Made by a program: the position numbers and the translations under genes. Below the pieces are notes generated by a model that did not search any database, was not told the DNA's origin, and worked only from the letters and a program-made list of their open reading frames with translations. From Armatimonadota bacterium (GTDB lineage Bacteria > Sysuimicrobiota > Sysuimicrobiia > Sysuimicrobiales > Humicultoraceae): a DNA stretch of 58,049 nucleotides. The stretch is from contig JAVKIA010000014.1 of the NCBI GenBank assembly GCA_031459715.1, positions 1 through 58,049 on the forward strand, in the 5' to 3' direction. Of the stretch, positions 46,557 to 50,374 are shown piece after piece (position 1 is the first letter of the stretch; the number at the start of each line of letters is the position of its first letter).

Positions 46557-46988
46557 TTATCCCCCGAAGGACCGCGCGGCGCGCGATTTCATCGTGCTGA
46601 TCTGGAAAGCATGCCCGGCCTCGTGCTCCAAGAGGTGAAAGACCACCCACTCCGGCGTCACTGCGTAGTCAACGTTGGCGGGGCTGCGCGGGCGCCTCCA
46701 CTCCGCGAGGGAGAGTCCGCGGAAGACCTCAAGAAAGATGGCTCGACTGCGCTCCAGGCGGGAGAGGTGTTCGGCCAGCGGAACAGACAGGACCCGAGTC
46801 AACCGGCCTGTGGCATCAGCCATTTCAAATGGAAACCACGCCGCGACACGGGAAGGAAAGTTCTGCTGCAGGTCCAGCCCTTGCACCAATCCGACAGTCC
46901 TGCGGCGAACCTCCTGCATCGCCCACAGCCAGCGCCCGACTTCAGGCTCGTACCCCAGTAGAGGCGAGACCTGCAGCATCTCTCGCAT
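46557..46988 (-). CDS. DinB/DUF664-like protein lacking the first helix pair
   Basis: 143 residues resembling the DinB-like four-helix family (which includes metal-dependent bacillithiol and mycothiol transferases). EPEVGRWLWAMQEVRRRTVGLVQGL fits helix 1 and YAVTPEWVVFHLLEHEAGHAFQI fits the last conserved segment with its HxxxH. The usual middle stretch that begins TIGxLLxHIxxxE and supplies the first metal His is missing: sequence jumps from GLDLQQNF straight to SRVAAWFPF. About 30 residues appear to be deleted in frame. It may be inactive as a metalloenzyme. Confidence 0.7.
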   Translation of the reverse strand: MREMLQVSPLLGYEPEVGRWLWAMQEVRRRTVGLVQGLDLQQNFPSRVAAWFPFEMADATGRLTRVLSVPLAEHLSRLERSRAIFLEVFRGLSLAEWRRPRSPANVDYAVTPEWVVFHLLEHEAGHAFQISTMKSRAARSFGG

Positions 46989-47085: not shown

Positions 47086-47114
47086 TTGACAAGGGAGCAT
47101 TCTCGCTGTAGATT
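47086..47114 (+). promoter_or_regulatory. Promoter of the MarR-protoglobin operon
   Basis: -35 TTGACA (47086-47091), 17-bp spacer, -10 TAGATT (47109-47114). Transcription would begin near 47121, inside the palindrome described separately. Strongest promoter by eye in this part of the window. Confidence 0.8.
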
Positions 47115-47133
47115 ACTTAGGACTCCTAACTAA
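47113..47133. promoter_or_regulatory. 21-bp near-palindromic MarR operator
   Basis: Two half-sites TTACTTAGGA and TCCTAACTAA flank a central C; only one symmetrical pair mismatches (position 4 against 18), and the inner 13 bp TTAGGACTCCTAA is fully symmetric. It overlaps the end of the -10 element and the transcription start, so binding would repress. Its location right before the MarR gene suggests autoregulation. Confidence 0.75.
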
Positions 47134-47144
47134 ATCCCGAAGTC

Positions 47145-47888
47145 ATGGCACGGCAACCCTTCAACACTCGTACCGATCCCCCGGCGGGGCGCGTGACCAC
47201 TGGGTTGATGAAGGTGGGACTCGCTCTCAAGCACCAGGCTTGGCGCCAGGCCGCCCGTAGGGGGCTGTCGCCAACGCAGGCGCAGATTCTCACACTCCTG
47301 GTAGCCTCGGACCGCGAGCTGCGCCTTGCGGAGGTGGCCTACCGGCTCGCGGTCGCCGCCGCAACCGCCAGCGAGGCGGTGGATACGCTGGTGCGGAAGG
47401 GTCTGGTGGACAAGAAGCGGGACGCAGCGGACGGGCGTGCTGTGGCGGTGAGACTCACGGCGGCCGGGCGGAAGGCGGCCGACTGTGTAGCCGGGTGGCC
47501 CGACTTCCTGCTGCAGGCGGCCGGTGCCCTCACCCCGCCTGAACAGGCCGTCTTCCTCCGCGGGCTCACCAAGATGATCCGCATGCTGCAAGAACGAGGG
47601 CAGATCCCGGTCGCCCGGATGTGTGTTACCTGCCGCTTCTTCCAGCCGAACGTGCACCGGGACTCCGACCGCCCGCACCACTGTGCCTTCGTCGACGCCC
47701 CCTTCGGCGACCGGCACCTGCGGCTGGACTGCCCCGACCACCAGCCAGCAGACGCCCGGCAGCGCAACGAGGCGTGGAAACGGTTCGCGACTGCAGAGCC
47801 CGGCCCAGAGTTCCATCACCGTGCTGAGCCCAAGCCTGAGGCCGTGACGGGGAAGGCAAGACTACTCAAAGGAGGGATGAAGCGATGA
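47145..47888 (+). CDS. MarR-family regulator with C-terminal four-cysteine motif
   Basis: 247 residues. Residues ~20-150 form a MarR winged-helix domain (SPTQAQILTLLVASDRELRLAEVAYRL, ATASEAVDTLVRKGLVDKKRD and the basic wing DGRAVAVRLTAAG). The remainder holds Cys 160 and Cys 163 (MCVTCRFF), Cys 180 (PHHCAFVDAPFG) and Cys 196 (LRLDCPDH), with several His close by. The spacing C-x2-C-x16-C-x15-C could bind a metal or Fe-S cluster, suggesting a redox- or gas-sensing repressor; this is inference. A disordered basic tail follows. ATG overlap (ATGA) couples it to the protoglobin. No clear ribosome site precedes ATG 47145. Confidence 0.88.
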   Translation: MARQPFNTRTDPPAGRVTTGLMKVGLALKHQAWRQAARRGLSPTQAQILTLLVASDRELRLAEVAYRLAVAAATASEAVDTLVRKGLVDKKRDAADGRAVAVRLTAAGRKAADCVAGWPDFLLQAAGALTPPEQAVFLRGLTKMIRMLQERGQIPVARMCVTCRFFQPNVHRDSDRPHHCAFVDAPFGDRHLRLDCPDHQPADARQRNEAWKRFATAEPGPEFHHRAEPKPEAVTGKARLLKGGMKR

Positions 47889-48469
47889 AGGACGCCGCCA
47901 TTCCAGGATACACTTACGGAACGGTGAAACGGTCCCCGGTAGGGCTTGAGGATCTGGACCTCCTCAAGCAAAGCGTGCTCTTTAGCAGGGAGGATGAGAC
48001 ATACCTGCGCATGGCGGGACAAGTGCTGTCCGACCAGGTGGAGGAGATCCTGGACCTGTGGTACGGGTTTGTCGGATCGCACCCCCACCTTGTCTACTAC
48101 TTCGCCGGACCCGACGGAAAGCCTGACCCGACCTACCTGAGCGCAGTACGCAGGCGGTTCGGCCAGTGGATCCTGGACACCTGCAACCGCCCCTACGATC
48201 AGGACTGGTTGAATTACCAGCACGAGATCGGTCTGCGCCACCACCGGAGCAAGAAGAACCAGACCGACAGGGTGCAGTCGGTGCCCAACATCGCCCACCG
48301 ATACCTGGTCGCCTTCATCTATCCGATCACGGCGACCATCAAGCCCTTCCTGGCAAAGAAGGGGCACAGCGCCGATGAGGTGGAGAAGATGCACCAGGCC
48401 TGGTTCAAATCCCTGGTGATGCAGGTGGCGCTGTGGAGCTATCCCTACGTCCGCGAAGGCGACTGGTAG
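47885..48469 (+). CDS. Protoglobin
   Basis: 194-residue single-domain heme globin of the protoglobin family. Aligning to the Methanosarcina acetivorans protein, its key heme-pocket residues are one lower in number here: Trp 59, Tyr 60 (distal), Phe 92, proximal His 119 in YQHEIGLRHH and Phe 144. It starts IPGYTYGTV, also typical. No signalling domain is attached, so it is a free protoglobin that may bind O2, CO or NO or act as a scavenger. AAAGGAGGGATG lies before ATG 47885. It is translated with the upstream cysteine-rich MarR protein. Confidence 0.94.
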   Translation: MKDAAIPGYTYGTVKRSPVGLEDLDLLKQSVLFSREDETYLRMAGQVLSDQVEEILDLWYGFVGSHPHLVYYFAGPDGKPDPTYLSAVRRRFGQWILDTCNRPYDQDWLNYQHEIGLRHHRSKKNQTDRVQSVPNIAHRYLVAFIYPITATIKPFLAKKGHSADEVEKMHQAWFKSLVMQVALWSYPYVREGDW

Positions 48470-48515: not shown

Positions 48516-49238
48516 TCAGAGCGCCGGCAGGAGGAGCAGATCCCGGCCCAGGCAGGGTACCACGGCGGAACGGTCCACGGCGGCGGCGTAGATCACATCC
48601 TGCTCCAGCCCAAGTCGCAGCAGGCTCTGCCCCGCCGCGCTGCGGCGCAGCAGGCGCAGCGGGTCAGGCTCGGCGGCGGCCAGCAGGCGCGCGGCCTGCG
48701 CTCCGTCGGTGAGCTGCAGGTCGCCGAGGTCGGAGAGCCGCTGCACCAGCACGCCTGCGGTGTAGAGGTCGTCGATGCCGAAGCCGCCGGGGTTCTCCGC
48801 CCGGCCGGCACAGAGCACGACGATGCCGGCCTCCCGGGAGGCCTCCCAGGCCGCGTGCGCCGCTGCCCTGGCATTGCGCAGGCAGGCCACCAGGACCGCA
48901 TCGGCGGTCGCTGCGGCGTGCAGTGCCGGGGCGCCGTTGGTCGTGGCGAAGATGACCTCCCGTCCACCCAGCGGCGCCGCGGCCAGCTCCACCGGGGAGT
49001 TCCCGTAGTCGAAGTCGGGCGGGGGCAGGCCGCCTTCCTCGCCCACAAGCAGGGGCCGCGGATCCCTCGCCGCGGCACGGCGGGCTGCCGCGACGGAGAA
49101 GGCCAGGTGGATCGCCGCACACCCCCTCTCCACCAGGGTCACCAGCGAGGTGCTGGCGCGCAGCACGTCCACCACCAGGGCCACCCCCTGCACAGGAGCG
49201 AGCCCCGGGCGCAGGGCGACGTCGACGTGCCGCCTCAC
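48516..49238 (-). CDS. comB: 2-phosphosulfolactate phosphatase family (ComB)
   Basis: 240-residue member of the ComB family, which dephosphorylates 2-phosphosulfolactate in coenzyme M or sulfolactate metabolism. VVDVLRASTSLVTLVERGC, GGLPPPDFDYGNSP, EVIFATTNGAPAL and ENPGGFGIDDLYTAGVLV are the family's conserved blocks. Start GTG 49238 overlaps the end of the M48 protease gene (GTGA). ComA/ComC partners are not present in this window, so the physiological substrate is uncertain. Part of the methionine operon only by proximity. Confidence 0.85.
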   Translation of the reverse strand: MRRHVDVALRPGLAPVQGVALVVDVLRASTSLVTLVERGCAAIHLAFSVAAARRAAARDPRPLLVGEEGGLPPPDFDYGNSPVELAAAPLGGREVIFATTNGAPALHAAATADAVLVACLRNARAAAHAAWEASREAGIVVLCAGRAENPGGFGIDDLYTAGVLVQRLSDLGDLQLTDGAQAARLLAAAEPDPLRLLRRSAAGQSLLRLGLEQDVIYAAAVDRSAVVPCLGRDLLLLPAL

Positions 49239-50374
49239 CCGCCGAGCTTGCGGCGGCGCAGGTCCTCTTCCATGGCCGCCCGCAGCTTCGCGTGGATGGC
49301 CAGGGCCAGATCGCGCACCGTCGTCCCGTTCCACTGGGCGTCGCGCGCCGTCAGAGTGAGGATGGTGGTACCCCGGGCCACCACCGACCAGGTCCCCCCA
49401 TGGGAGCTCACGCCGACCTCGAAGGAACGCAGCTCCGCGTTGAACAACCGGTCCAGGCGCGCGGCCGCCTCGCGTACCCGTGCCAGGTCCGGCAGCCGCA
49501 GCACCACCGAGTCGTTCACCAGCAGCTCTCCCCCGGCGGCGCCCCGGTCCCTGACCTCGCGCACCAATAGCTGCAGGTAGTTGGCCGCGATGCGCCGCAC
49601 CAGGGGAATGCCCCGCCGTCGCAGCTCAGCCTCGATGTAGGCCACTCGTTCCGCCGTCCTGGGGTGGTCGGCCCAGGCGCCGGGATCGAGGCCCGCCCGG
49701 TACTGCTCCTCCCGGGCGAAGCGCTCCATCAGGGTGAGGAGCCCCACGGGTGCGTATGCCGTCTGCTGCAGGTAGGTGATGGCGGTCAGGTCAGCGTCGC
49801 GCTCCAGGTCCCGGCTGTAGTGCGCCAGGACGCTGATGCTGGCCAGGTTGACCCCCTGCGCCACCTGCGGGTCCCGCGTCAGCGCGGCGACCAGGATGGT
49901 CAGCAGCGCGGCGCGGTTGCGCCGCCGCAGCATCTCCATACCGTGGCCGTGGGCCACGTGCGCGATTTCATGCGCCACGATGGCCGCCAGCTCGTGGTCG
50001 CTGCGGACGAAAGCAAACATCGGCCTGGTCATGTAGATAATCCCCCCGGGCAGGGAGACTGCGTTGGGCACATCCGCCTCCAGCACCTTGAAGACATAGC
50101 TTACGCCTTCGCGGTCCGAGACGGGCACCAGGTCCGCAGCGATCCGCAGCAGGCGCTCGTTAAGGACGGCATCCTTGACCGGCGGGTGGCGGGCTTCAAG
50201 CTGTGCGGCCAGCTGACGCCCCAGGCGGATCTCCTCCGCGCTGGGAGGAGCTGCGGCGCCACCGGCCACCTCCGCCAGGAACAGCACCACCAGCAGCGCC
50301 GCAGCCTGAGCTGCCGCCACCCGGCTCAGGCCCGCGCCTCCACCCGGCGTGGGGCCCGCCTCCGCCCGGCTCAC
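49235..50374 (-). CDS. Exported M48-family metalloprotease
   Basis: 379 residues with a signal or membrane anchor near residues 16-40 (AAAQAAALLVVLFLAEVAGG). The zinc site is HEIAHVAHGHG plus the downstream Glu in SRDLERDADLTAITYLQQT, as in BepA/YfgC-type proteases. ADHPRTAERVAYIEAEL is also typical of that subgroup. No C-terminal TPR repeats are visible; instead ~120 residues of unassigned alpha/beta sequence. Likely role in envelope protein quality control. Coupled by 4-bp overlaps with tatD upstream and comB downstream. Confidence 0.9.
   Translation of the reverse strand: MSRAEAGPTPGGGAGLSRVAAAQAAALLVVLFLAEVAGGAAAPPSAEEIRLGRQLAAQLEARHPPVKDAVLNERLLRIAADLVPVSDREGVSYVFKVLEADVPNAVSLPGGIIYMTRPMFAFVRSDHELAAIVAHEIAHVAHGHGMEMLRRRNRAALLTILVAALTRDPQVAQGVNLASISVLAHYSRDLERDADLTAITYLQQTAYAPVGLLTLMERFAREEQYRAGLDPGAWADHPRTAERVAYIEAELRRRGIPLVRRIAANYLQLLVREVRDRGAAGGELLVNDSVVLRLPDLARVREAAARLDRLFNAELRSFEVGVSSHGGTWSVVARGTTILTLTARDAQWNGTTVRDLALAIHAKLRAAMEEDLRRRKLGG

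Follow-up and report, generated by a model that had tools for sequence, protein, structure and literature searches.

A gene for a MarR-type regulator with a C-terminal module of four cysteines (C4 module) and the protoglobin gene following it would, according to our analysis, form an autoregulated operon in which a C4-metal repressor controls an NO-induced protoglobin; taken as a whole, we consider this explanation rather probable. The features of the locus are given below with their positions in the window, by which we mean the whole stretch of 58,049 nucleotides that was analysed.

47086-47091, plus strand: -35 element TTGACA of the operon promoter, predicted from its match to the consensus
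47109-47114, plus strand: -10 element TAGATT, predicted from the consensus, its final two bases within the operator
47113-47133, no strand: predicted operator TTACTTAGGACTCCTAACTAA, a 21-bp palindrome with one mismatch in its 10-bp arms
47145-47888, plus strand: regulator ORF, 247 aa, MarR-type winged helix-turn-helix plus C-terminal four-cysteine module
47265-47468, plus strand: MarR winged-helix DNA-binding domain, regulator residues 41-108 (match to Pfam HTH_27)
47622-47732, plus strand: C4 module, regulator residues 160-196 (C160, C163, C180, C196; PHH at 177-179)
47870-47875, plus strand: Shine-Dalgarno sequence AGGAGG of the protoglobin gene, read from the sequence, within the regulator gene and nine bases before the start
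47885-48469, plus strand: protoglobin ORF, 194 aa, single-domain (Pfam Protoglobin)

Reading of the sequence gives a spacer of 17 bp between TTGACA and TAGATT, and the predicted operator at 47113-47133 overlaps the -10 element and the likely transcription start. At the other end of the regulator gene, its stop codon TGA and the start codon ATG of the protoglobin gene share bases (ATGA). Since the flanking genes are divergent on the upstream side (46557-46988, DinB-like) and convergent on the downstream side (48516-49334), a two-gene transcription unit is the simplest interpretation. A preliminary description of this DNA had reported a regulator with a C-x2-C-x16-C-x15-C set, an overlap of its stop with the protoglobin start and a near-perfect 21-bp palindrome on the promoter, and all of these were found again: Cys160, Cys163, Cys180 and Cys196 are present in the ORF, the overlap is the ATGA mentioned above, and the palindrome with its single mismatch reaches into TAGATT.

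The regulator matches the Pfam families HTH_27 (9.9e-12), MarR_2 (2.4e-10) and MarR (1.5e-8), and it scores above the curated cut-offs of the MarR models (PF12802, 40.9 bits, cut-off 27; PF01047, 34.8 bits, cut-off 24.6). In database records, members of its family are named merely MarR family winged-helix regulator. The AlphaFold model of the regulator has a mean pLDDT of 84 and of about 90 across the C4 module, which is modelled as a short hairpin; a long helix connects it with the winged helix. A fold search with this model returned MarR structures only, with zinc-binding and ligand-binding MarR proteins as the nearest ones; in this search, the matches of which were dominated by MarR proteins, no structural relative of the C4 module alone was found. 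We infer that the regulator binds the palindromic operator as a MarR dimer.

The four cysteines C160, C163, C180 and C196 are invariant among 13 aligned regulator sequences of the window's phylum, which were obtained by whole-genome search with no cysteine pattern and include a paralogue with 34% identity. All four are also present in 70 of 70 aligned homologues, with C196 as the only unbiased position for the loci from the collection scan, because the peptide patterns used in that scan contained three of the four cysteines. The homologues found from the protoglobin side in the unbiased census described below keep them as well (21 of 21), and in the Thermus-type copies of the regulator the PHH motif is lost while the four cysteines are retained. 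The tetrad behaves as a set of metal ligands, since it is kept even where the flanking residues change, and most likely a metal centre is bound in the C4 module, which may be an Fe-S cluster or a zinc or iron thiolate.

The product of the second gene matches the Pfam family Protoglobin (PF11563) at 3.4e-36 and 125.1 bits (cut-off 25). It resembles the protoglobin of Methanosarcina acetivorans (2veb) in a clear full-length match (phmmer, 3.7e-97, residues 5-194), and its residue 119 is a retained histidine aligned with position 120 of 2veb. To our knowledge, no regulator has been assigned to the M. acetivorans protein. According to PMC4020757, this protein has nitrite-reductase and peroxynitrite-isomerase activity in vitro and protoglobin is a member of the sensor globin lineage; in PMC3680402 the biological role of the M. 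acetivorans protein is described as unknown.

Palindromes of the quality of that at 47113-47133 occur eight times in the 58-kb window, so that size alone is weak evidence, and 17 of 5000 shuffles of the 156-bp intergenic region contain such a palindrome. The refined palindromic profile built from homologue promoters has the consensus ATATTTAGGACTCCTAAATAT, which in effect is TTAGGAnTCCTAA with AT-rich flanks. With this profile, the site at 47113-47133 scores 32.8 and the next best site in the window -0.9. At the genome scale, the TTAGGAnTCCTAA core was searched as a pattern in 36 genomes; in the window's genome of 2.76 Mb, with up to one mismatch allowed, it occurred a single time. Sixty-two of 88 homologue promoters scored above the 99th percentile of shuffles, and a site at the regulator is present in five of the six annotated-plasmid records that were scanned. 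Most sites are no more than 30 nt away from the start of the coding sequence, and many of them lie on the promoter boxes or in the space between these. Because it is conserved across homologues and unique in the genome, the predicted operator is more than a chance palindrome. Autoregulation is not universal, since the orthologues L003, L009 and L012 from the same phylum have no good operator at their own promoters.

A separate group is formed by the Nitrospira-type homologues (L070, L072, L076, L082, L086, L089, L091, L093, L095, L098, L100, L102, L106 and L109), in which the C4 module is kept and the TTAGGAnTCCTAA operator is absent. Several of these loci share a ACTGGTATTTAAGGAGG-like upstream stretch, which is perhaps a changed operator.

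One genome collection yielded 80 homologue loci, and in 23 of them tblastn located a protoglobin gene nearby, mostly adjacent and on the same strand. The protoglobin precedes the regulator in three loci (L061, L069 and L073), one gene separates the two at L079, and translational coupling by ATGA was also seen at several loci other than that of the window. Judged by the names of the records, paired loci belong to Chloroflexota, Acidobacteriota, Actinomycetota, Pseudomonadota, Planctomycetota, Binatota, Deinococcota, Poribacteria, Bacillota and Myxococcota, at least ten phyla in all, and they include the isolates Ktedonosporobacter rubrisoli (L032), Calidithermus roseus (L061) and Sorangium cellulosum (L079). 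On the regulator tree, the protoglobin label is scattered with 14 changes and clusters modestly. An apparent regulator-protoglobin fusion at L036 was rejected: its frame is open, but the globin ATG has a Shine-Dalgarno sequence, AAGGAGG, in front of it and the two genes overlap normally at the sister locus L063, so that a lost stop codon or a sequencing slip is likelier.

The census from the protoglobin side covered 610 genomes of three phyla and found 38 protoglobins close to that of the window. A C4-MarR homologue lies within 1.5 kb of the protoglobin in 21 of these 38 protoglobin genomes and farther off or on another contig in five more; in 12, a regulator of the C4-MarR family is absent at the thresholds used. 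Thus the conservation of the cysteines in homologues (70/70 aligned, 21/21 from the protoglobin side), of the protoglobin pairing (23/80 regulator loci, 21/38 from the protoglobin side) and of the palindrome upstream of orthologues (62/88 promoters), on all of which the proposal in the preliminary description depended, was borne out. Reading of the sequences at L148, L152, L154 and L156, where a protoglobin is present without a C4 regulator, revealed a divergent HxlR-like or LysR-like regulator. The presence of such regulators where the C4 regulator is absent suggests that protoglobin was captured by several stress regulators.

Within the window's phylum, the regulator was found in 13 of 43 genomes and protoglobin in seven, each of which also has the regulator (a hand calculation gives a hypergeometric probability of about 5e-5; six come from one family, so they are not independent). 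In the six protoglobin genomes other than that of the window, the regulator is located on a different contig. All six unlinked protoglobin genes have an operator about 25 nt before the start, with scores of 16.9-29.0 and a next best score of at most 3.2 in the same loci, and none of these promoters was used in building the operator profile. A site at these promoters is what control of protoglobin by the regulator predicts, and this was the most telling of the tests made; it makes the link from regulator to protoglobin independent of adjacency and strongly suggests that the regulator controls protoglobin. In three of these genomes (G013, G018 and G021), a good site is missing from the promoter of the regulator itself; since the site is kept at protoglobin alone, the target appears to be conserved better than autoregulation. 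Altogether, sequence comparison supports the predicted operator and operon as well as the conserved C4 module and the conserved target.

The regulon probably extends beyond protoglobin. In total, 597 kb of homologue loci were scanned for sites with a profile score above 15 away from the regulator promoters, and nearly all strong sites could be assigned, with only that at L040 not clearly so. Operators are located before protoglobin where protoglobin comes first, before a single-domain globin at L059 (a double operator), before a small CxxC redoxin at six loci (L084, L094, L099, L101, L110 and L111), and before a secreted protein at L037, L050, L051 and L071 and, by position, at L075. The preliminary description had proposed a repressor-protoglobin unit, and this stands insofar as the operator and the pairing recur; the idea of a single unit does not, since the regulator belongs to a widespread family with a small regulon. 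Its suggestions of NO or O2 as the signal and of Fe-S or zinc at the cysteines are still hypotheses, with NO favoured by the gene context in a subset of the loci.

Several kinds of genes recur beside the regulator. A small redoxin with the motif YHAGCPVC (borderline Thioredoxin_3) follows it at L044, L083, L084, L094, L099, L101, L103, L110 and L111. The secreted protein, of about 250 aa and with no Pfam match, is found beside it in 13 loci (among them L037, L050, L051, L062, L071, L075, L078, L085, L034 and L188) and has the conserved stretch AVTSHPDFDDTPLWDENNDxxxxNDGxVWHTHWVVL. A small gene for a secreted cupredoxin-like protein (PF13473 in the loci scanned for it; L004, L005, L006, L007, L010, L011, L013 and L014) is usually the divergent neighbour of the regulator gene within the window's phylum, with the operator, where found, between the two genes; it is likely a further target of the regulator. 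In about 14 loci, distributed over several phyla, a class-I glutamine amidotransferase-like gene is found not more than a few kb away from the regulator (including L032, L034, L036, L042, L049, L057, L062, L063, L067, L074 and L184).

Genes related to NO are also found in these neighbourhoods. Pfam analysis revealed cytochrome P460 in Thermus-type operons of the order protoglobin-P460-regulator and at L065, flavohaemoglobin (Hmp) together with an Rrf2 regulator beside homologues in three Planctomycetes, and a NorB domain, RIC and NnrS with HPP adjoining further homologues. On a Defluviimonas plasmid, NnrS is near the regulator, and in Nostoc a globin is near it, with a thiol peroxidase and a thioredoxin beside the plasmid copy.

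In the reading that we favour, the regulator and protoglobin genes would constitute one autoregulated operon, and the regulator, as a MarR dimer, would bind the palindrome at 47113-47133 and repress itself and protoglobin. NO or related reactive nitrogen species would attack the C4 metal centre (Fe-S, or a zinc or iron thiolate), the attacked regulator would release the operator, and the protoglobin induced in this way would scavenge or convert NO, nitrite or peroxynitrite. Here we infer the direction of control (repression), the metal, NO as the signal and the catalytic role of protoglobin. NO is favoured because the neighbours P460, flavohaemoglobin, NorB, NnrS and RIC are an NO-defence set, and it agrees with the in vitro activities towards nitrite and peroxynitrite given for the M. 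acetivorans protein (PMC4020757).

A comparable case is ArnR of Corynebacterium glutamicum, a protein with a [4Fe-4S] cluster on three cysteines whose repression of hmp is relieved by NO (PMC12343034). Like the window regulator, ArnR is a winged-helix repressor of MarR/ArsR look with a C-terminal cysteine region and a globin gene as target. However, it has three conserved cysteines (179, 193 and 223) and is almost confined to Actinobacteria (PMC12343034), whereas the window regulator has four in about 40 residues with other spacing, and its family occurs in many phyla with protoglobin as target. Membership in the ArnR family was rejected, the score with ArnR1-like PF22166 being 12.4 bits (cut-off 26) and the cysteine spacing being different; ArnR is an analogue, not a relative, of the putative repressor described here. 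The window regulator would have the role that NsrR has, in which a repressor with a cysteine cluster acts on genes for globins and NO defence, but NsrR belongs to the Rrf2 fold family and has another operator, while the window regulator has the MarR fold and no Rrf2 match in Pfam. Rrf2 proteins are encoded beside the C4-MarR regulator in some loci. The redox-responsive MarR proteins of the OhrR/MgrA type and the zinc-responsive ones of the AdcR/ZitR type share the DNA-binding fold and are among the nearest structures and sequence matches, but they are without a C-terminal C4 module, and with the curated AdcR model NF038251 the regulator reaches 32.5 bits versus a cut-off of 175. CioR of Chromobacterium violaceum is the first gene of an autorepressed operon protecting against NO (PMC11837568). 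It is thus similar to the window regulator as a MarR-family protein encoded first in an autorepressed (here predicted) operon, and unlike it belongs to the GbsR subgroup, has one noted cysteine (C52) and controls cytochrome bd (PMC11837568). In the open-access literature searched, no paper on a C4-MarR regulator together with protoglobin was found, those on ArnR (PMC12343034) and CioR (PMC11837568) being the nearest. What appears to be new is the joining of a repressor of MarR fold to an additional sensory module and to a new kind of target, and in the tests made the regulator does not match the ArnR, NsrR and AdcR families.

Explicit NO genes are present at a minority of the loci, and redoxins or peroxidases are at least as frequent. 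Since redoxins are frequent and the published precedent, ArnR, is analogous rather than related, we make no firm claim for NO; it would come first as the signal of the regulator and thiol or redox stress second. Thiol or peroxide stress fits as well, given the redoxin, thiol-peroxidase and TlpA-like partners. Accordingly, the four cysteines could be a thiol/redox sensor that becomes oxidised or loses its metal under the action of peroxide, hypochlorite, sulfane sulfur or disulfide stress, with protoglobin serving peroxide or sulfide chemistry. OhrR-type MarR proteins are known cysteine sensors, and the CxxC redoxins beside the regulator (15 loci, six with an operator), the AhpC/TSA-like redoxins (16 loci) and the thiol peroxidase and thioredoxin flanking the Nostoc plasmid copy are consistent with this. 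However, two separate globin lineages, protoglobin and single-domain globin, are targets, the neighbours Hmp, NorB, NnrS, P460 and RIC are an NO set, and a tetrad kept despite flanking change looks like a metal site rather than a one-cysteine switch, so that we give this alternative a limited chance.

Clearly less probable is that the C4 module is a structural zinc knuckle, that a small-molecule effector binds in the usual MarR pocket, and that the globin link is metabolic. A single CxxC with two lone cysteines is compatible with zinc, and the nearest folds, as mentioned, are zinc-binding and ligand-binding MarR proteins, but among the homologue loci we found no recurrent catabolic or efflux gene beside the regulator, the recurrent targets being globins and redoxins. 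It is quite improbable that protoglobin itself is the gas sensor and signals by protein contact to a regulator which is just the DNA-binding output. The ATGA coupling in the window and several other loci would suit such a pair, as would the place of protoglobin in the sensor globin lineage (PMC4020757). However, the genes are unlinked in six genomes of the same phylum with protoglobin itself as a target, many regulators have a redoxin target and no protoglobin nearby, and the only apparent fusion, at L036, is unconvincing with its Shine-Dalgarno sequence before the globin ATG. That we are dealing with an ordinary autoregulated MarR protein whose neighbour and palindrome are there by chance is scarcely credible, even if many MarR genes are autoregulated and the window contains eight palindromes of this size, because the pairing, the operator and the C4 module are all found again in different phyla and the operator is also present at protoglobin genes not linked to the regulator.

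Returning to the NO-responsive repressor, it may represent a widespread family of NO-sensing regulators with MarR fold and C4 module, with TTAGGAnTCCTAA as their own operator code and with protoglobins and single-domain globins at the heart of their regulon. Such a family would be the MarR-fold counterpart of NsrR and would provide the first regulator for bacterial protoglobins; we consider the chances for and against this view to be even.

These observations are important for several reasons. What is known of protoglobins comes mostly from studies of archaeal proteins in vitro, and the part they play in the organism is still described as unknown. The regulator and its predicted operator mark bacterial protoglobins in many phyla and thus may offer a handle on this role, and the signal that releases the repressor, once found, should point to the physiological substrate of protoglobin. 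Last, the characterisation of one family member would annotate many genes and allow prediction of regulons from the 13-bp core.
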